Of a stretch of DNA of 64,000 nt, positions 4,733 to 43,103 are shown one piece after another (within the stretch, counting starts at the first letter, position 1; every line of letters begins with the position of its first letter). A model generated the notes under the pieces. That model saw only the letters and a list, made by a program, of their open reading frames with translations, did no database searches and was not told the DNA's origin. The stretch covers positions 1 through 64,000 of the forward strand of contig NZ_AHJE01000013.1 in NCBI RefSeq assembly GCF_000243095.1, written 5' to 3'. This stretch comes from Cupriavidus basilensis OR16. GTDB taxonomy: Bacteria; Pseudomonadota; Gammaproteobacteria; Burkholderiales; Burkholderiaceae. Made by a program: the position numbers and the translations under genes.

Positions 4733-5368
4733 CTATGCGGCCGGCTGGCCGTGACGACGCTGCCACCACTCCTGCAACAGCCACAGCCCCAGGCCGGCCA
4801 GCGCGCCGGCCGCGTGCGCGATACGCACGACCCCAAACCCCCACTGCGCGTCAAACACCACGGGCGCAAGCCACGACTGTTCAAGCCAGGTCTTCGCCAG
4901 CACGCCGAGGCAGAGCGCCACGCCGAGCACGCGCGACACGCCGTGACCATAGAGCAGGCGCAGGCCGCCCCACAGGGCCAGCCCGTGCAGCGCGCCGGAC
5001 AACCCGCCATACCAGCCCACCGACGGCACGCGGCATAGCGCCAGTTGCACCGCGACGCCGCAGGCGAGCAGGACCGCCAGCATCGCGCCGGCGCGCGCCT
5101 CGCGGCCGATCAGCAGGAACAGGCCCGCGGCGGCCAACAGGTCCGCCAGCCAGTGCTGCCAGCCAAGGTGGACCCACATCGCCGTCAGCAGGCGCCACCA
5201 CTGGCCCGCCAAGCCGTGCCCCACTACCGCATCGCGCAGGTAGAGCCCGTGCGCGTGCAGCCAGGGGATGAAGGTGAAGGCGGCGCCAAGCGAGGCCGTG
5301 ACCGTCAGCACGGCCAGCACCTCCAGCCATCCCGGCGGGCGCGCCGCGCCGGCCACCTGCGGGTTCAT
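4733..5368 (-). CDS. rrtA: Rhombosortase (rhomboid-family intramembrane protease)
   Basis: A 211-residue inner-membrane protein with about six hydrophobic segments. It has the rhomboid serine motif GLSGALHG (Ser124, His128) and the second catalytic histidine in RIAHAAGALAG (His185). The short length, N-terminal region and GWYGGLSG context fit rhombosortase, the rhomboid branch known to pair with GlyGly-CTERM proteins, rather than general GlpG. Its likely substrate is the neighbouring S8 protease, which carries such a tail. The start codon overlaps the glnE stop (ATGA, 4 bp), so it may be translationally coupled to glnE. A generic rhomboid is the alternative, but the neighbour makes rhombosortase much more likely. 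Confidence 0.88.
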   Translation of the reverse strand: MNPQVAGAARPPGWLEVLAVLTVTASLGAAFTFIPWLHAHGLYLRDAVVGHGLAGQWWRLLTAMWVHLGWQHWLADLLAAAGLFLLIGREARAGAMLAVLLACGVAVQLALCRVPSVGWYGGLSGALHGLALWGGLRLLYGHGVSRVLGVALCLGVLAKTWLEQSWLAPVVFDAQWGFGVVRIAHAAGALAGLGLWLLQEWWQRRHGQPAA

Positions 5369-8357
5369 CTGGCGCCGGCAGCAACCGGCTCGCCGAACAC
5401 CGCTTGCCAGAGCGTGCGCACGTGTTCCGCCTGCTGCGCCACCACGGCCGGCGCAACCCGTGCGTGGACCTGCCCATCCAGGCGCAGCTGGTGCTGGCGG
5501 GCACGGAACACCCGATACGCATCGCCCACCTCGCGCGCCAGCGTGGCATCGATCAGGCCGAGTTCGCCCGCGGTGCGCAGCAGCGCGATATTGCCGGCAT
5601 TGCGCGTGAGCGCCGGATGATCGTGGCTGTGCAACAGCACGAGGTATTGCACCGTGAATTCGATGTCGACCATGCCGCCGCGATCATGCTTGAGGTCGAA
5701 TAAACCGCTTGGGTTGGGATGGCCGTCGGCCACCTTGTGGCGCATGGCCGCGATCTCGCCGCGCAGCGTGGCGGCGTCGCGCGGCTGGCGCAGGATCTCG
5801 TCGCGCAAGCTTTCGAAGTGCGCCCCGATCTCGGCATCCCCCGCGCAAAAACGCGCGCGCGTCAGCGCCTGGTGCTCCCACACCCAGGCGGTGTTGTCGC
5901 CCTCGCGCTGCTGGTAGCGGCGAAAGCCCTCGAAGCTGGTCACCAGCAGCCCGGCCTCGCCGTTGGGACGCAAGCGCGTGTCGACGTCGAACAGCGTGCC
6001 GGCGGCGGTATGGCTGGTCAGCCAGGTGATCAGGCGGCGCGCGTAGGCGGCGTAGACGTCGGGCGCGCGCTCATGCTCGTCCTCGTAGAGGAAGATGATG
6101 TCGAGGTCGGAGGCATAGCCCAGCTCCTTGCCGCCCAGCTTGCCGTAGGCGATCACGGCAAAGCGCGGCTGCTCGGCGTGGCGGGTGGCTAGTTGGCGCC
6201 AGACTGCCTGCAGGGTCACTTCGAGCATGACGTCGGCCAGGTCCGACAGCCGGTCGGCAATCTGCTCCACCGTCAGCATGCCTTGCAGGTCTTGCAGCAG
6301 GATGCGGAAGGTCTCGGCATGGTGCTCGCGGCGCAGGACGTCCATCTGCGCTTCGATCTGGCCATCGGCCGCGTCGAGGCGCGCGGCCAGGCGGCCGCGG
6401 AAGCCGTTCCAGTCGGGCGCGCCCGCCAGCGCATCGCTGTCGAGCAGTTCGTCGAGCAATTGCGGGTGGCGGGTCAGGTAGGCGGCGGCCCAGCTCGATG
6501 CGTGCAGCGTGTCGGCCACGCGCGCCATGGCTTGCGGGTACTCGGAAAGCAACGACAGATAGGACGCGCGGCGGCTGATGGCATCCAGGAAATCGACAAA
6601 GCGGGCGATGGTGCGGTCCGCGTCTTCCTGGCGCGAGGCCAGGTCGAGCGCGCGGTTGACCAGCAGGTCAAAGCGCACGCGGCTTTCTTTGCTCCGACAA
6701 CGCCCGGTAACGCAACGAGCCGCCGAATGGCGCGCAGGCGGTCGAGCAGCCCGGCGCAATCGCTGAAGCCGGCGGTGGCCAGGCGCTCGCACGGGGGCTC
6801 ATCCTGTTCTTCCTGGATCAACGCCGGCCACAAGGCCTCGCACGGCGCATGCGCTTCGTCGGGGTCCGAGAAGGTTGCCTCGAACTGTTGCGCCACCGGA
6901 TCCTGCAGCGACGCCAGCCGCTCTAGCAAGGCCGGCCAGTCCGCGCAGCCCATCATCCGCGCCACCGCCAGTTGCTCCTCTTCCGAAGTAGGCAGATGGT
7001 GCGTCTGGGCATCGTCGCGATACTGCAGGCGATGCTCGAGCTGGCGCAGGAAGCGGTAAGCGTCAGCCAGTTGCCCGGCCTGGCCAGCAGGCAGCAGCCC
7101 ATGCTCCACGGCCACCGTCAGCACCTCCAAGGTCGGCCGGATGCGCAGCGCCGGGTCCTGGCCGCCACGGATCAGCTGGAAGACCTGGGCCATGAACTCG
7201 ATCTCGCGGATGCCGCCGCGGCCCAGCTTGATATTGAAAGCGCGCTGGTTCACGCGCTGGCCGCTGCCAGGCGCCGCCAGGCCGCCGCTGCGCTTGGCAG
7301 CCTCGGCGCGGATCTGCGCATGCAGCGAACGGATCGCCGCGATCACGCCGTAGTCGAGGTAGCGGCGAAAGACGAAGGGCGTGGTCAGGCTGGCCAGCTG
7401 CGCGGCGGTACGCTGCGCATGCGGGGTATCCTGCGCCGACACCACCCTGCCCTTGATCCAGGCGTAGCGCTCCCACTCGCGCCCCTGCACCATCAGGTAT
7501 TGCTCCAGCATGCCGAGGCTGCAGGCCAGTGGCCCGGCGTCGCCATTGGGGCGCAGGCGCATGTCGACGCGGAACACGTAGCCATCTCCGGTCACGTCGG
7601 CCAGCAGGTTGATCAGGCGCCGCCCCAGGCGGATGAAATATTCGTGATTGGACAGGCTGCGTTGCCCGCCGTCGGTGTCGCCATCTTCGTCGTACAGGAA
7701 GATCAGGTCGATATCGGACGACACATTGAGCTCGCGGCCACCCAGCTTGCCCATGCCGACCACAACCAGTTCCTGCACCTCCCCGCTGCTCTCCCCGACT
7801 GGCCGCCCGTAGGTCGGGGCAAGGTCCGCCTCCAGCATGGCCAGGCCGTACTGGATGCCCAGTTCGGCCAGGTCGGTCATCGCGCCGGTGACTTCGCCGA
7901 GCGTCGACAGGCCGCGCAGATCGCGCTCGATCAACACGCACATCACTTCCGCGCGCAAGCGGCGCAGCGCGCGCTTGATGGCATCTTCCACATCGGCCGA
8001 TGGCTCGTGCAGGACCTTGAGCCGCGCCGCCATCCAGGCGCGCGTGAGCGGCTGCTCGCGCGCGAGCGCGACGATTTCGGCCAGCTCGGGACGAGCTTGC
8101 ACCATGCGGCGGGTGTAATGGGAATAGGCGGGCGAGTACAATGCCATGCCGGCGCATGCGACCGGCACGAGTTCCGCGGCGGCCACCACCGCGAACGGGC
8201 CCGTGGCCATGTCGGCCACAGCCTGCCTGGCAGCGCTGGAAGTGTTGCCGGGCGCATGTTCGCCGGCAGGACCAGCCGCGGCCGCGGTTTGGTTTGCGCC
8301 ATCGGTTGCGGCGGTATCGGGCGCCGCCGCGGAACTCGTCGGATCAGTGGAAGTCAT
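5365..8357 (-). CDS. glnE: Glutamine synthetase adenylyltransferase/deadenylase (frameshifted)
   Basis: GlnE adenylylates and deadenylylates glutamine synthetase in response to PII, setting its activity to nitrogen supply. Both nucleotidyltransferase domains are present: the N-terminal removase with GMGKLGGRELNVSSDIDL and the C-terminal transferase with YGKLGGKELGYASDLDI. Total length is near 997 codons, with an Ala/Thr-rich N-terminal extension of about 50 residues. The frame breaks between about 6685 and 6725, at the junction of the two halves; a third frame there gives a short plausible LRYRALSEQ segment, so two compensating indels in about 40 bp may be present. Downstream, the stop overlaps the rhombosortase start. 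The gene is essential to nitrogen control, so the break is more likely a sequence error than decay. Confidence 0.9.
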
Positions 8358-21524: not shown

Positions 21525-22691
21525 TCAGGCGCGCAGCAGTCCGCCCAGCATTTCCCCCCGCCCACCCCCGTCCCCCCGCCCGCGCCCGCGCCCGAACAGC
21601 GTGCGCGCCACGCGCTCGCCATCCAGCCCGAAGCTCTGCGCCGCTGCCGCGGCGATCAATCCATCCAGTTCCGTGGTCGGCGCCAGGTCGCGTCCCTGGT
21701 AGAGCGCGCCCTGCGCCAGCCCTGGCCAGTCGGCCAGCACCCGTCCGCCCTTCACGCCACCGCCCAGTAGCATCGCCGCCGCGCCGGTGCCGTGATCGGT
21801 GCCGCCGGTGCCGTTAGCGGCCGCGGTGCGCCCGAACTCCGTGGCCACCAGCACCGTGGTGCGCTCCCACGCCGGGCCCAGCCCGTCGCGCAGCGCCGCC
21901 AGCATGGTGTCCAGGGCCTTGAGGCGAGCCGCCAGGCGTGGCGCCTGCGCGCTGTGCGTATCCCAGCCGCCGGTCTCGATCATGGCAATGCGCGGCCCGT
22001 CCGCGCGCGCCAGGAAGCCTGCGGCGAGACGGCCGAGGCTGGCCGGGTCCTGGCGCGCGCCCGCGTCTCCCGCCAGCCCCCTGGCCTGCATTGCCGCGCT
22101 CCAGAGCGGGTGCAGTTGCGCGTCCATCTCGTAGAGTTGCCCGACGCGCGTGAGCAGGTCGTCGGGTGCCGACGGCAGCGCGGATGGCGCATAGGAACCG
22201 ACTTGCACCGGGCCGCGTAGCGCAGCCGGCACCGTCGGCGCGAAGGCAATGGCATTCTCCGAGCGCTTGGGCAGCAGGCTCACCAGCCGGTTCATCCAGC
22301 CATCCTTCACCTGGTAAGGCTCGGCGCCGCCGGTCTCCAGCACGTTCTGGCCGTCGAAGTGCGAACGCTCGCGATATGGCGATGCCACCGCCTGCACAAA
22401 CAGCGCCTGCCCTGCCGTGTACATCCGTGCCGTCTCCGTCAGCGCGGGATGCAGCGCGAACGTGCCATCGAGCTTCGTGGCTTGCGCGGCGTCGATGGCC
22501 AGCGCTCCGCGCAGGCGGGCGTAACCGGGATCGGCGTAGGGAATGACCGTGTTCAAGCCATCGGCGGCGCCGCGCTGGATGACGAAGACGAAGCGATGGT
22601 CGGAGTCGACGCTGGCGAGGGTGAGGCGCGGCAACGCCAGCATCGCGCTGGCACTAGCGGTAACGCGGAGGAAATCTCGGCGGGAAAACAT
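21525..22691 (-). CDS. DUF1501 protein, Tat-exported
   Basis: A 388-residue protein with a twin-arginine signal (SRRDFLRVTASA) and the DUF1501 (sulfatase-like fold) features ETGGWDTHS, TEFGRT and GTDHGTG. The ATG at 22691 has GGAGG 8 nt upstream; a GTG 9 bp earlier is less likely. It sits 5 bp after the DUF1800 gene, and the two families almost always occur as a pair. The function is not established. The Gly/Arg-rich stretch near the end (GRGRGRGDGGG) is low complexity. Confidence 0.88.
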   Translation of the reverse strand: MFSRRDFLRVTASASAMLALPRLTLASVDSDHRFVFVIQRGAADGLNTVIPYADPGYARLRGALAIDAAQATKLDGTFALHPALTETARMYTAGQALFVQAVASPYRERSHFDGQNVLETGGAEPYQVKDGWMNRLVSLLPKRSENAIAFAPTVPAALRGPVQVGSYAPSALPSAPDDLLTRVGQLYEMDAQLHPLWSAAMQARGLAGDAGARQDPASLGRLAAGFLARADGPRIAMIETGGWDTHSAQAPRLAARLKALDTMLAALRDGLGPAWERTTVLVATEFGRTAAANGTGGTDHGTGAAAMLLGGGVKGGRVLADWPGLAQGALYQGRDLAPTTELDGLIAAAAAQSFGLDGERVARTLFGRGRGRGDGGGRGEMLGGLLRA

Positions 22692-22696
22692 GGCAA

Positions 22697-24082
22697 TCAC
22701 CTCCGTTGAAAATCGGGCGACACCAGCAGCAAGGCCAGTGCGGTCTGTGCGCTCTCGGCACGCGCGATGGCGGCGGCGGTCGGTGCCGACAGCGTGCCCG
22801 CGAGCAGCTTGGGACCGAGCTCGCGCGCGTCGATCCGGTCGCCGACGCGCGCCGCCAGCCGCTGCGCCAGCTCGACCCGGCGCACCAGTGCGTCGGGCGC
22901 GGCCCAGCTTGCGGCAATGTCGTCATAGCCCGCTGGCGAGCCCGGCCGCCAGACCGGCTGGCCGAGCTGGGTCAGCACGGGCGCGAAGTGCTGCGCACCC
23001 GCCTCGTGCAAACCCAGTCCGCGCAAGGCGGAGAGCGTCCACTCCCAAGGCGTCTTGAATTTCGCCGGCGCGCCGGCCCACGCCTCGGGCGACTGCACCA
23101 GCGCGCGATACATCTCCGGCAGCGCGCCACCACCGCGCAGGTACGCCTCGGACAAGCGCGCCACCAGCGCGGGCGGTGGCGTGTCGGCAACGAAGTGGCG
23201 CGCCAGCTTGGTGGCCAGGTGATTGGCCGTGGCCTCGCTTTGCGCGAGGTCATGCAGCACGGCCAGCGCCTGCGCCTCGCCCTGCTGCGGGTAGCTGCGG
23301 CCCAGGATGGTGCGGGTGCCGGGCTCGTGCACGCGCGTGCGGAACTGGAAGCGCCCGGGCTCGCCGTCTTCGCGCGCGCCGAGGCCGCCTATGCTCCAGC
23401 CGGTCAGTGCACGCGCAAACTCGGTCACGTCGGCCTGCTGGTAGCCGCTGCGCACGCCGAGCGTATGCAGCTCCATGATTTCGCGCGCCAGGTTCTCGTT
23501 CAATCCGAGCTGGCGCTCGGGCGCGCGTTGCGCGGCCACCCGCGCGGCCATGCTGTCGGGACCGATCGAGCGGACCTGGTCCAGGAAAACCTGCATGGCG
23601 GGATGGCGCTCCACCGCGACCAGCATGTCCTCGAAGCGCCCGAGCACATGCGGGCGGATCGCCTCGGCCTCGAACGCGCCAGCCAGCGCGGCTACGGCCG
23701 GCTTCTCCACCGAGACCGCGAAGTGGTTGGACCAGAAATGCACCAGCCGCTCGACGAACGGCGCCTGCGTCACCAGGGCACTGGTCACGCGCGCGTCGAC
23801 GGCGTCGCGATAGGCCTCGCGCGTCTCGCGCTGCAACTGCTGGCGCGCCGCGGTCTTGGCGTCGGCCTGCGCCTGGCGCACCTCGCGCTGCTGCGCGCCG
23901 AACGCGCCGGCCAGCGCGGGGGTGCCCGGCTGCGCGCTCCAGGCCGCGGGCCTGGCCTCGTAGCGCTCGAACTGGCCCAGCAGCCAGCCGCGCGGATCGG
24001 CCGGCGGCGGCTCGTCCGGGCGCGCGCCCAGCCCGAACCGGTTGACCGCGACAGCCGCGGCCGTCATGGCGGTGTTTGTCAT
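22697..24082 (-). CDS. DUF1800 protein
   Basis: A 461-residue DUF1800 protein: NRFGLGARPDE near the start, HFWSNHFAVS, ELHTLGVRSGYQQADV and LARHFVADTPP are all family blocks. The ATG at 24082 is chosen because GGGGAGC lies 5-6 nt upstream and the domain starts directly after it, but the upstream Spy-like frame runs into it without a stop (see that entry). DUF1800 proteins pair with DUF1501 proteins; their role is unknown. Confidence 0.85.
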   Translation of the reverse strand: MTNTAMTAAAVAVNRFGLGARPDEPPPADPRGWLLGQFERYEARPAAWSAQPGTPALAGAFGAQQREVRQAQADAKTAARQQLQRETREAYRDAVDARVTSALVTQAPFVERLVHFWSNHFAVSVEKPAVAALAGAFEAEAIRPHVLGRFEDMLVAVERHPAMQVFLDQVRSIGPDSMAARVAAQRAPERQLGLNENLAREIMELHTLGVRSGYQQADVTEFARALTGWSIGGLGAREDGEPGRFQFRTRVHEPGTRTILGRSYPQQGEAQALAVLHDLAQSEATANHLATKLARHFVADTPPPALVARLSEAYLRGGGALPEMYRALVQSPEAWAGAPAKFKTPWEWTLSALRGLGLHEAGAQHFAPVLTQLGQPVWRPGSPAGYDDIAASWAAPDALVRRVELAQRLAARVGDRIDARELGPKLLAGTLSAPTAAAIARAESAQTALALLLVSPDFQRR

Positions 24083-24649
24083 GTGTTGCTCCCCTGGGAC
24101 GTGCTTGCTACCTTGGTCCTGGCCGCAATCGCTGTCGTCGTCGTTATCGTTATCGTTCGCCGCATCATGGCGCCGCCTTCGCGGGCCGGGCCGGGCCGGT
24201 GCGCAGCGGGCCGCGCTGGACCATGCATCGGCCAGCTTCTCCCGGTCCGCGGGCGACAGCGTGGCGGCAAAATCCACCACGCTGCCTTCGAGCTGGCTGC
24301 GCACCGCGGCATCGGCCTCGCGCGTGCGGGCTAAAGCCGCCGCCAGCGCGTCGCGCTCGAACTGCGGCTGCCGCAGCAGTTGCTCCACCTGGCGGCGTCC
24401 ATCGCGCGCGGCGTCCACCTCGGCGGCCGCGCCGCGGCGTGCCGCGCGCAAGCCTTGCAGGAACTGCCTGCGCTGCTCAGCCTCCAGCCCGTCGGCGGCA
24501 AAGCGCAGGCCGCGCGGCTGCGCGGCTGCGTTGCGCTCCGCGGCGTACCAGCGATAGCCGCCGCCGCCAATCGCGCCCAGCAGGAACACGTTGACCAGCA
24601 CGGAGACCGCCAGCGCCATCCTGAGCCGCTTCGGCGTACGCTCGTTCAT
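24083..24649 (-). CDS. Membrane-anchored Spy/CnrX-like periplasmic protein (3' end unclear)
   Basis: The first 30 residues hold one membrane segment (LAVSVLVNVFLLGAIGGGGY). The periplasmic part is helical and Arg/Ala/Glu-rich (EQRRQFLQGLRAARRGAAAE, LEGSVVDFAATLSPADREKLAD), as in the metal-resistance/Spy family that binds metals or unfolded proteins. No in-frame stop follows: reading continues through an Asp/Asn repeat (NDNDNDDDSD) straight into the DUF1800 protein. Either this is a real fusion or a stop was lost by a small indel near 24170-24200; the ribosome site before DUF1800 favours the latter. It overlaps the upstream gene by 4 bp. Confidence 0.7.
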
Positions 24650-25044
24650 TCTTCGCTCCCGCTGTGCGCCATGCCACCGAAGCCGGTCGAGGCATAGGGC
24701 AGATCGATGGCGGCCGGCACCGGCACCGTTGCCAGCACGGCCGAGACCAGCAACGCGCCCGCCAAGCTACCGGCCAGGCCGACGCCAGCCAGGCCCAGCC
24801 CGGACCACCACCACGGCGAGCGTGGCGTTGGCGCGCTCGCGGCGATGCGGCGCTGCAACGCCGCTTCCGGGGCCGCCACCTGATGCGCGGCCAGCAAGCG
24901 GTCGAGCGCGGCGGCGTTGGCCAGCGCAGCAAGATGCCCGGGATCGGCGGCCATGGCCTGGCCCTCGGCCCGCTCCCCTTCGGGCCAGCGTGCCGGGTCG
25001 GCACCGTAGCTCTCGGTCAGTGCGCGAAATCTCTCGGGTGTCAT
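24646..25044 (-). CDS. Small single-span membrane protein, probable anti-sigma factor
   Basis: A 132-residue protein: N-terminal cytoplasmic helical part (MTPERFRALTESYGADPARWP), one membrane span (GLGLAGVGLAGSLAGALLVSAVLATV, given here in two pieces by position: about residues 82-107) and a short periplasmic tail. It overlaps the ECF sigma gene by 4 bp upstream and the Spy-like gene by 4 bp downstream, so its position and topology fit an anti-sigma factor. No zinc HxxxCxxC motif is seen, so it is not the ZAS type. Confidence 0.65.
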   Translation of the reverse strand: MTPERFRALTESYGADPARWPEGERAEGQAMAADPGHLAALANAAALDRLLAAHQVAAPEAALQRRIAASAPTPRSPWWWSGLGLAGVGLAGSLAGALLVSAVLATVPVPAAIDLPYASTGFGGMAHSGSEE

Positions 25045-25601
25045 CGCAAGTCCTCGTGATGGCCGTCCTGCATGAGCAAGTCGCGCAGGTTGCGCCGTGC
25101 GCGCGCGAGCAAGCTTTCCAGCGCCTCGATGCTGATGCCCATCAGCGCGGCGGCCTCGCCGTTGGGCAACTCCTGGTAGTACTGCAGCACCAGCGCCTCG
25201 CGCTGGCGCGCGGGCAGCTTCGCCAGTGCCGCGCCCACGCGCGCGCCCTGCGCGGCCACATCCAGCGCTTCCTCCGGTCCCGCCCCGGGCGCCGCCTGCT
25301 CGGGCATAGCCTCGATCGCCTGCTCTTGCGTACCGCGCAAGCGGTCGTAGCAGAGATTCAGCGCCACGCGATGCAGCCAGGTGTCAAAGCGCGCCCGGCC
25401 GGGTTGCCAGCGCGCGGCCTCTCTCCACAGCCGCATGAACACTTCCTGCGCCACGTCCTCCGCTTCACCGCGGTCTCCCAGCATGCGCGTGGCCAGCGCG
25501 AGCACGCGCGGCAGCTTGCGCGAGACCATCTCGCGCACCGCGGCTGCATCATGCCTGCCGACCCGCGCCAGCAACACATCGTCCGGATCTTTGTCGCTCA
25601 A
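25041..25601 (-). CDS. ECF-family RNA polymerase sigma factor
   Basis: A 186-residue sigma factor with region 2 (RMLGDRGEAEDVAQEVFMRLW) and region 4 (LPARQREALVLQYYQELPNG, EAAALMGISIEALESLLARARRNLR). The start must be TTG at 25601 because a stop lies nine codons upstream and no other start codon is in between. It begins an overlapping chain with a membrane protein, a Spy-like protein, DUF1800 and DUF1501 genes and probably controls them in response to an envelope signal. Confidence 0.88.
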   Translation of the reverse strand: MSDKDPDDVLLARVGRHDAAAVREMVSRKLPRVLALATRMLGDRGEAEDVAQEVFMRLWREAARWQPGRARFDTWLHRVALNLCYDRLRGTQEQAIEAMPEQAAPGAGPEEALDVAAQGARVGAALAKLPARQREALVLQYYQELPNGEAAALMGISIEALESLLARARRNLRDLLMQDGHHEDLR

Positions 25602-25677
25602 TGGGTGTGGTTCCGCGTTGCCGCTTCATCCTTCTCGTAATCCACGCCCGCCCCCGGGGCGGGCGCGCATTGCCTCG

Positions 25678-25788
25678 TCAGTAGACAAAAACCGGCGCGC
25701 GATAGTGATAGTAGGCGGGCCGGGCCGGCACGATCACGCAGCCTGACAACGTAACGGCGACAAGCGCCGCGATCAAAAGGCTTTTCAT
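25678..25788 (-). CDS. 36-residue lipoprotein
   Basis: A very small predicted lipoprotein: MKSLLIAALVAVTLSGCVIV, with lipobox LSGC (Cys17), then a Pro/Tyr-rich mature part (RPAYYHYRAPVFVY). The mature protein is only 20 residues. AGGGGAAA lies before the ATG. It sits between the YXWGXW gene and the ECF sigma gene on the same strand. Similar Tyr-rich mini-lipoproteins are often missed in annotation; no function is known to me. Confidence 0.68.
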   Translation of the reverse strand: MKSLLIAALVAVTLSGCVIVPARPAYYHYRAPVFVY

Positions 25789-25842
25789 CGATTTCCCCTT
25801 GCTATGGTTTGCTGCCAACGCGCGTCACCAAGGCCATGCCGA

Positions 25843-26160
25843 TCACGCCGCCCAATGCCCTTCGACCCAGCGCCATTGCGGGCCGCGCGCCACCCAGTGC
25901 CCCGGCACCCAGCGGTAGCCCGCCCTGGCGGGACGCCAATGGCCACCCAGCCAGACGTAGGCGCCATTGCGCCATTGCCAGTGGCCCGGATCCCAGACGT
26001 AGCCGCCACGCGCGGGCGGCAGGACCTCCTGGCGCATCGGCGGGGGCGCCGAGGGCGCGATCACGATGGTTTGAGCGATTGCCGGCGCCAGCGCGAACGC
26101 CGCCGTCGCGGCGACGCCCAGGCGGGCAAGGCTAGATGAAAGGGGCGATGACCTGCGCAT
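25843..26160 (-). CDS. YXWGXW-repeat exported protein
   Basis: A 105-residue exported protein: signal peptide (cleavage near AIA-QT, residue 29) and a mature part of Trp/Tyr/His repeats, YVWDPGHWQWRNG, YVWLGGHWRPARAG, YRWVPGHWVARG and WRWVEGHW. This repeat family is common in betaproteobacteria and has no established role, though surface or envelope functions are suspected. It is on the same strand as the sigma-factor chain, 54 bp from the mini-lipoprotein. Confidence 0.85.
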   Translation of the reverse strand: MRRSSPLSSSLARLGVAATAAFALAPAIAQTIVIAPSAPPPMRQEVLPPARGGYVWDPGHWQWRNGAYVWLGGHWRPARAGYRWVPGHWVARGPQWRWVEGHWAA

Positions 26161-42476: not shown

Positions 42477-43103
42477 ATGCATGCCTCCCCGCCTGGCGCC
42501 CCGCCCCCCCAATCCTCTGCCGGACTGTCCGCGTTGCCGGATACCGACCTGATGCTGCTGGTCGCCAACGGCCTGATCGAGCAGCCGGTGGCCGAGCTGT
42601 TCCGCCGCCACAACGCAGCGCTGTACAACTACGTGGCCTGGCTATGCCAGGGCAACACCGGCGAGGCCGAGGATGTGGCCCAGAAGACCTGGGTCAAGCT
42701 GATGACGCGCTGCGCGGACTACCAGCCCAGCGCGGCCCTGCGCACCTTCCTGTTCCAGATCGCGCGCAACACCTGGCTGGACCAGTTGCGCGGCGCCTAT
42801 GAGCGCCAGCGCGACACGCTCGACGAAGCGCACCTCGCCCTGCCGGCGGATGACCTCAGCCCCGAGGCCGAGGCGCAGCTGCGCCAGAACCTGCAGGGCG
42901 TGCGGCAAGCGCTGCTGGCGCTGCCGGCGCCCCAGCGCGAGGTGATCGTGCTGCGTTTCTTCAGCGAGATGAGCGTGGAGGACATCGCCCTCACGCTGGG
43001 CGAGAAGTTCGAAACCATCAAGAGCCGGCTGCGCTACGCCTTTGCGCGGCTGCGCGAGAGCCTGGCGGCCACCGCCACCGCGTCGCAGGAGCGGCTGCCA
43101 TGA
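42477..43103 (+). CDS. ECF-family RNA polymerase sigma factor
   Basis: A 208-residue sigma factor: region 2 (LFRRHNAALYNYVAWLCQGN, EAEDVAQKTWVKLM) and region 4 (LPAPQREVIVLRFFSEMSVE, IALTLGEKFETIKSRLRYAFARLR). A TATACT box at 42464-42469 is only 7 bp from the ATG, so transcription from it would be nearly leaderless, and no ribosome site is seen. The stop overlaps the next gene by 4 bp (ATGA), the usual arrangement for an anti-sigma partner. Confidence 0.9.
   Translation: MHASPPGAPPPQSSAGLSALPDTDLMLLVANGLIEQPVAELFRRHNAALYNYVAWLCQGNTGEAEDVAQKTWVKLMTRCADYQPSAALRTFLFQIARNTWLDQLRGAYERQRDTLDEAHLALPADDLSPEAEAQLRQNLQGVRQALLALPAPQREVIVLRFFSEMSVEDIALTLGEKFETIKSRLRYAFARLRESLAATATASQERLP

Follow-up and report, generated by a model that had tools for sequence, protein, structure and literature searches.

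The gene row in the window

The 64,000-nucleotide stretch of Cupriavidus basilensis OR16 DNA analyzed here (contig NZ_AHJE01000013.1, positions 1 to 64,000; hereafter the window) carries a row of seven genes on its minus strand, from 26160 to 21525, in which an extracytoplasmic function (ECF) sigma factor stands together with small envelope proteins and a DUF1800-DUF1501 pair. A sequence-only reading had proposed that this row is an ECF-controlled envelope module, and all seven of the features that it named were present at these positions, in the claimed order and on the same strand. DUF1800 and DUF1501 proteins are widespread, unexplained, and seldom named in the open literature. From the comparisons described below, a stress-type sigma factor and its membrane partners appear to switch on the DUF pair through matching promoters that are conserved in many soil bacteria, and a sigma factor for which a promoter can be predicted offers a handle that would make the function of the pair directly testable.

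The first gene (25843 to 26160) encodes a secreted YXWGXW/WXXGXW-repeat protein of 105 amino acids (PF12779, 42.8 bits; cut-off, 18). A candidate promoter, P1 (26231 to 26260, minus strand), with the sequence CGACGG-N17-CGTTTAA, lies 97 to 100 bp upstream of its start. The second gene (25678 to 25788) encodes a 36-amino acid lipoprotein with an LSGC lipobox read from the sequence; it had no Pfam match above the cut-off, and its relatives have 33 to 37 amino acids. The ECF sigma factor gene (25041 to 25601) begins with TTG, and its product is of the NF004113 (PRK05602) kind (275 bits; cut-off, 208). It is followed by a gene (24646 to 25044) for a one-span membrane protein without a Pfam family above the cut-off, for which the position, the 4-bp overlap with the sigma gene, and the single hydrophobic segment (residues 95 to 113) suggest the role of a putative anti-sigma factor. 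The next gene (24165 to 24649, the 3' end being placed by homology) encodes a membrane-anchored Spy/CnrX-like protein of the Metal_resist family (PF13801, 83.7 bits). The DUF1800 gene (22697 to 24082; PF08811, 421.9 bits) encodes 461 amino acids from its own ATG, which is preceded by GGGGAG, and no signal peptide was seen in the product. The DUF1501 protein (21525 to 22700; PF07394, 121.5 bits) has a twin-arginine translocation (Tat) motif, with a TAT_signal score of 20.6 bits that is slightly below the cut-off of 22.7, and resembles the alkaline phosphatase superfamily by weak but uniform fold matches.

Three 4-bp overlaps were found in the window, in line with the tight spacing that had been claimed for the core: sigma/one-span (25041 to 25044), one-span/Spy-like (24646 to 24649), and DUF1800/DUF1501 (22697 to 22700). 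The Spy-like protein and DUF1800 had been read as products of two genes. Both domains are present; as assembled, they share one frame of 650 amino acids (24649 to 22697). Alignment with two genomes of the same genus, G023 and G024, showed that the window is one base short close to the 3' end of the gene for the Spy-like protein, and the two genes are separate in G023, G024, and a further genome, G807. A natural Spy-DUF1800 fusion was rejected because the joined frame is a one-base deletion relative to these sister genomes. The frameshift is either a mutation or an assembly error, the window assembly being a 416-contig draft.

Conservation of the gene order

Species genomes scanned with the DUF1800 protein gave 499 relatives, of which the best 80 were used; with the window, G023, and G024, these made 83 loci. 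The 80 belong to Paraburkholderia, Burkholderia, Trinickia, one Pandoraea bin, and unclassified Burkholderiales bins, all of them Burkholderiaceae or such bins. The five core genes were found in the same order (sigma, one-span, Spy-like, DUF1800, and DUF1501) in 79 of the 83 loci and all seven genes in 53, so that the seven-feature set is, judged from gene order, a conserved module beyond chance. Among the four loci without a complete core, three start at a contig end (L064, L108, and L133), and L090 is missing only the one-span match. The co-occurrence of the whole set, which the sequence-only reading had put forward for checking, was thus seen in these 53 loci. The absence of a sigma gene beside the pair in relatives, which it had named as evidence that would speak against the module, was not encountered: the sigma gene adjoins the pair in 80 loci, and the other three are cut at a contig end. 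The sigma/one-span overlap of 4 bp recurs in 72 of 79 loci. Where the first gene of these Burkholderiaceae loci was identified, it is mostly the YXWGXW gene (match upstream of sigma in 72/83 loci), and the lipoprotein is present in many (55/83). In four Burkholderia loci (L086, L093, L097, and L124), unrelated genes that differ from locus to locus occupy a common site between the two halves of the module, after the Spy-like gene and before DUF1800, as in an insertion hot spot.

The association with a sigma gene holds for pairs of the module type and fails for a paralogous pair, which is the one present in most same-genus genomes having DUF1800 and has no sigma gene in the flanking DNA covered. 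At L034 (G000:C346:62000-69512, about 5184 to 6875), the genome's other DUF1800 has a lipoprotein-like start and lies beside a DUF1501-like frame that is truncated where the contig ends.

A candidate promoter motif common to both halves of the module

The same two boxes were first noticed by inspection upstream of DUF1800 in a split Burkholderia locus and upstream of the first gene in the window. They provide a computational candidate for the ECF target promoter whose mapping had been suggested, CGACGG-N15..18-CGTTNAA, with observed spacers of 16 or 17. Upstream of the first gene (P1), the motif was present in 77 of 80 testable loci; of the exceptions, L032 has a copy that was scored as "other," and L076 and L104 have one-base variants. 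Upstream of DUF1800 (P2), it was present in 79 of 81 loci, including 26 of the 26 in which the two halves of the module lie 200 bp or more apart and 53 of the 55 without such a gap. Elsewhere in the 1,207,899 bases, there were three other sense matches, one of which is the P1 of L032 itself, where the front gene is shortened, and no antisense matches. A stricter form of the motif gave 104 matches, 102 of them at the two promoter places, compared with a mean of 2.0 in 20 dinucleotide shuffles.

The loci not used for motif discovery were 40 NF004113 neighborhoods (L200 to L239; 584,718 bases), picked with a preference for high scores, 37 from one NF004113 scan and 3 from another. The relaxed form matched 25 times upstream of sigma, 7 times upstream of DUF1800, 4 times elsewhere in the sense direction, and 9 times antisense (32/45 at P1 or P2), and the strict form matched 11, 7, 2, and 0 times, respectively (18/20 at P1 or P2). 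One relaxed P1 match, in L237, falls where the sigma frame begins and is likely to be spurious. The DUF pair was found in seven of these loci, in five of six genomes of the group g387, which lies outside the window's class, and in two of the window's own family; the P2 motif was present in all seven. On plasmid pC of Ensifer adhaerens, the sigma operon and the DUF pair point toward each other (convergent halves), with the motif 60 bp before DUF1800 and 192 bp before sigma, and there is one additional relaxed match. Because the motif precedes each half in adjacent, split, and convergent layouts, co-regulation of the two halves appears to have been kept in all three.

To what extent the motif occurs outside the module was estimated in nine genomes with the pattern CGACGGN{16,17}CGTTNAA, which gave 59 matches, 15 in the module and 44 elsewhere, compared with 48 for a reversed control pattern. 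A wide regulon was rejected, and the regulon looks local, because the matches outside the module are at the control level; a few further targets are possible. An earlier, less specific pattern, CGGATTTN{11,13}CGTTNA, gave 25 matches in six genomes, four of them in the module, and two matches for the control; of the other 21, six represent one site recurring in six genomes, which lies inside an RpoB-like coding frame where inspected. In two Burkholderia genomes (L190 and L191), a P2-like site precedes the same secreted-protein frame, a possible further target. In L205 and L206 (g387), a gene for a small secreted Trp/His-rich protein (GCGPGW..WGRC, translated by eye) lies between P2 and DUF1800.

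The regulator and its relatives

Regulator partners were counted in longer stretches, as 1.5-kb flanks are too short to show them. Among the 40 NF004113 loci, both one-span and Spy-like matches lie beside sigma in 26; in five more, a diverged protein with a hydrophobic segment is encoded between sigma and a Spy-like (Metal_resist) gene; and one has a one-span match only. By gene order, the conserved regulator comprises three genes, those for the sigma factor, a small membrane protein, and a Spy/CnrX-like protein anchored in the membrane. An EF-hand-like first gene was found in 23 of the 25 loci with a P1 match and in 27 of the 40 overall (by a simple pattern; three confirmed in Pfam); in the window and, for the most part, in Burkholderiaceae, the YXWGXW gene takes this place instead. 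In the sigma tree, Burkholderiaceae (15) and g387 (6) form a clade (support, 99/92) next to the group f230 (9), and Burkholderiaceae and g387 are the groups having the DUF pair among those sampled. This distribution is compatible with the DUF pair having joined this sigma line once and later been lost from L231 (g387). At L231, the regulator and a P2-like site are present without the DUF pair within 15 kb; in Methylobacterium bullatum, the DUF pair is present without a sigma match within 13 kb. The window itself contains a second ECF-like sigma match (42636 to 43064, plus strand), with 36% identity to the module sigma.

The closest described circuit is that of Caulobacter vibrioides, in which cabp, the gene for an EF-hand protein, is a neighbor of the ECF sigma gene sigV (PMC13171946). 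In the cited passages, the mapped SigV-dependent cabp promoter consists of a -35 element GGAAA, 13 nt, and a -10 element CGTTCA; it is raised by SigV overexpression, lowered by sigV deletion, and induced by EGTA and pH 4, and the membrane link of the circuit is marked as unknown by the authors (PMC13171946). One printed primer ends in ..gcgcgacgga (PMC13171946), and by joining this end to the mapped promoter, we infer that the cabp promoter reads CGACGGAAA-N13-CGTTCA, the same motif with N16. The window promoter fits CGACGGA-N-CGTTNA before the first gene, except for a T after CGACGG. In both systems, an ECF sigma gene adjoins a gene for a small secreted protein, with sigma-dependent activation of the front gene in Caulobacter (PMC13171946), and the window sigma is of the NF004113 type; a match to this family was also obtained in the Caulobacter control genome, the gene being unnamed in the match. 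The systems differ in the front gene, which encodes an EF-hand protein in Caulobacter and a YXWGXW protein in the window, and the cited passages describe neither a DUF1800/DUF1501 pair nor an anti-sigma factor in Caulobacter (PMC13171946). The comparison proposes candidates for the membrane link in the SigV-CaBP circuit.

The putative output pair

With a loose threshold, a TAT_signal match was listed for 24 of the 30 DUF1501 members, and D47, D247, H249, E288, D302, and H303, which may have a metal-type role, are invariant in 30 sequences. The 50 listed Foldseek matches of its predicted model all look, by name, like members of the alkaline phosphatase superfamily, with a best E of 0.019 and a mean predicted local distance difference test (pLDDT) of 47.7 for the model. 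The DUF1800 model was fair (pLDDT 75.5), and Foldseek found nothing for it (best E 0.29); for either protein, there were no sequence relatives in the PDB at E up to 10. DUF1800 has no signal-like N-terminus, its top 10-residue hydropathy in the first 45 residues being 1.79 compared with a median of 2.0 for DUF1501. Co-export of the signal-less DUF1800 with DUF1501 through Tat is one idea.

DUF1800-DUF1501 pairs have been reported beside bacterial chitin synthase genes, where the same families adjoin and DUF1501 has a Tat motif; these pairs have other partners, and a sigma factor is not described in the relevant passages (PMC5122149). Within the open-access literature, sigma control of DUF1800/DUF1501 was not described in passages on DUF1800, nor in titles or abstracts elsewhere.

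A proposed self-activating switch

We consider it probable that the module is a self-activating sigma-factor switch, in which the regulator operon behind P1 and, outside the window's genus, the DUF1800-DUF1501 pair behind P2 would be placed under one motif. The proposal that an ECF sigma factor controls an envelope module whose output is the DUF pair is supported by the gene order and by a promoter motif that is common to both halves, even when they are separated. In such a switch, the one-span protein would be the anti-sigma factor that holds sigma, and a periplasmic change (acid, loss of calcium, or general envelope stress, if SigV-CaBP is taken as the analogy) would be felt through the Spy-like protein. 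The freed sigma would read P1, which would amplify its own production and raise the YXWGXW protein and the lipoprotein, and would also read P2 to produce the DUF pair. DUF1501 would cross the membrane in folded form through Tat, perhaps taking the signal-less DUF1800 along, and could act in the envelope as an enzyme of the alkaline phosphatase superfamily. Because P2 is missing in the window's genus, the pair would there be read from P1 or from another, unrecognized promoter.

Several observations weigh against this switch. P2 is missing from the window and from G807 as well as from G023 and G024, the two exceptions among the 81 loci, so that co-regulation in the window and its three sister genomes depends on P1. 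The one-span/Spy-like overlap of 4 bp was found in 50 of 80 loci and the DUF1800/DUF1501 overlap in 63 of 83. Eight of the 40 NF004113 loci have neither partner beside sigma, and by a crude hydropathy scale, the anti-sigma candidates have one segment in 42 of 78 cases, as in the window, and two segments in 36. There is no DUF pair beside the regulator, within the flanking DNA covered, in all nine f230 genomes and in one of the six g387 genomes (L231). The DUF1501 model is poor (predicted template modeling score 0.55 at the pLDDT given above), and none of its Foldseek matches reaches E 0.001. In Caulobacter, cabp and sigV are described as monocistronic, with a separate intragenic sigV promoter, and a SigT-like consensus and a role of SigT are reported, direct binding not being demonstrated (PMC13171946); SigV is presumably the NF004113 protein of Caulobacter. 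Finally, the pairing of sigma with the motif is predicted, and the motif could serve another regulator.

A wider reading is more speculative. A widespread envelope switch of the SigV type may have DUF1800 and DUF1501 as its dedicated effectors, and in this switch Burkholderiaceae would have replaced a calcium-sensing EF-hand protein by the YXWGXW protein and a lipoprotein of about 35 residues. Once activated, DUF1501, as an exported enzyme of the alkaline phosphatase superfamily, might carry DUF1800 through Tat and remodel the envelope, and the one-span and Spy-like proteins might correspond to the missing link between the periplasm and SigV in Caulobacter. We regard this combination as tentative, with the odds against it.

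The module within Cupriavidus

Among the window genome and 35 same-genus genomes, module-type DUF1800 with sigma was found in the window genome, G023, and G024. A fourth copy, G807, was reached through a CoxE-like gene, giving 4 of 40 genomes; G804 to G806 were examined at the CoxE-like site only and have LysR there. The module sits between a LysR gene and the CoxE-like gene. In 30 CoxE-like loci, LysR directly adjoined the CoxE-like gene in 19, the module in 3, and neither in 8, one of which is G024, with transposase genes between. The simplest reading is a gain between LysR and CoxE, and the module was probably acquired in the genus. The transposase-like genes beside the G024 module, which separate it from the CoxE-like gene, lie at about 7814 to 10252 of L033.

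An alternative view is that the module in the window's genus is a decaying acquisition without function; it is the likeliest of the alternatives and still, in our judgment, an unlikely one. Its presence in so few genomes and the absence of P2 agree with decay, as do the lesions in three of the four copies: the frameshift in the window, an internal deletion in the YXWGXW gene of G023, and, in G024, frameshifted genes for sigma and the one-span protein together with a shortened DUF1501, with transposase genes alongside. However, all seven genes are open in G807, the module proteins are 86 to 97% identical between species, and single-base lesions in draft assemblies may be errors.

The signal and the remaining alternatives

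The sequence-only reading had suggested a response to metal or envelope stress, of which the metal part has been weakened. The CnrYXH/NccYXH systems of Cupriavidus metallidurans presumably combine an ECF sigma factor, a one-span anti-sigma factor, and a membrane-anchored Metal_resist protein, with metal efflux as output. A switch of this type, in which the Spy-like protein would bind a transition metal and release sigma through the one-span protein, shares with the window the three-part layout in one operon and the Metal_resist domain, and CnrH (4cxf) is among the PDB matches of the sigma factor (E 4.7e-14), behind SigE, SigW, SigK, and RpoE chains. Nevertheless, Cys is absent from the periplasmic part of the 81 members of the Spy-like family, and neither a His nor a Met is conserved there in 90% of them; 26 of the 81 are without any His, Cys, or Met in this part. 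A CnrX-type metal site is disfavored because these residues, presumably the ligand types of CnrX, are not conserved, and the module has the DUF pair as output and no efflux gene. A metal switch is therefore quite improbable.

Least probable, by a narrow step, is that the motif belongs to another regulator or that the DUF pair is merely a linked neighbor: the motif was indeed found by inspection of the same loci, but P2 is retained where the halves are split or convergent, the motif recurs outside the discovery set, always before the sigma operon and in lineages with differing first genes, and its spacing and CGTT -10 element suit an ECF promoter.

For the self-activating switch that we prefer, the analogy with SigV-CaBP makes acid, loss of calcium, or general envelope stress the better guess as the inducing signal. 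A search of the Spy-like protein against PDB sequences gave nine weak, chance-like matches. The family resembles Spy/ZraP/CpxP (LTXXQ) in that its proteins are small, helical, and periplasmic and have an LTPEER-like stretch, and the Ensifer member has a sub-threshold PF07813 match; the window's protein differs in retaining an N-terminal membrane anchor and the regulator gene order, and a single N-terminal hydrophobic segment is present in 80 of the 81 members.

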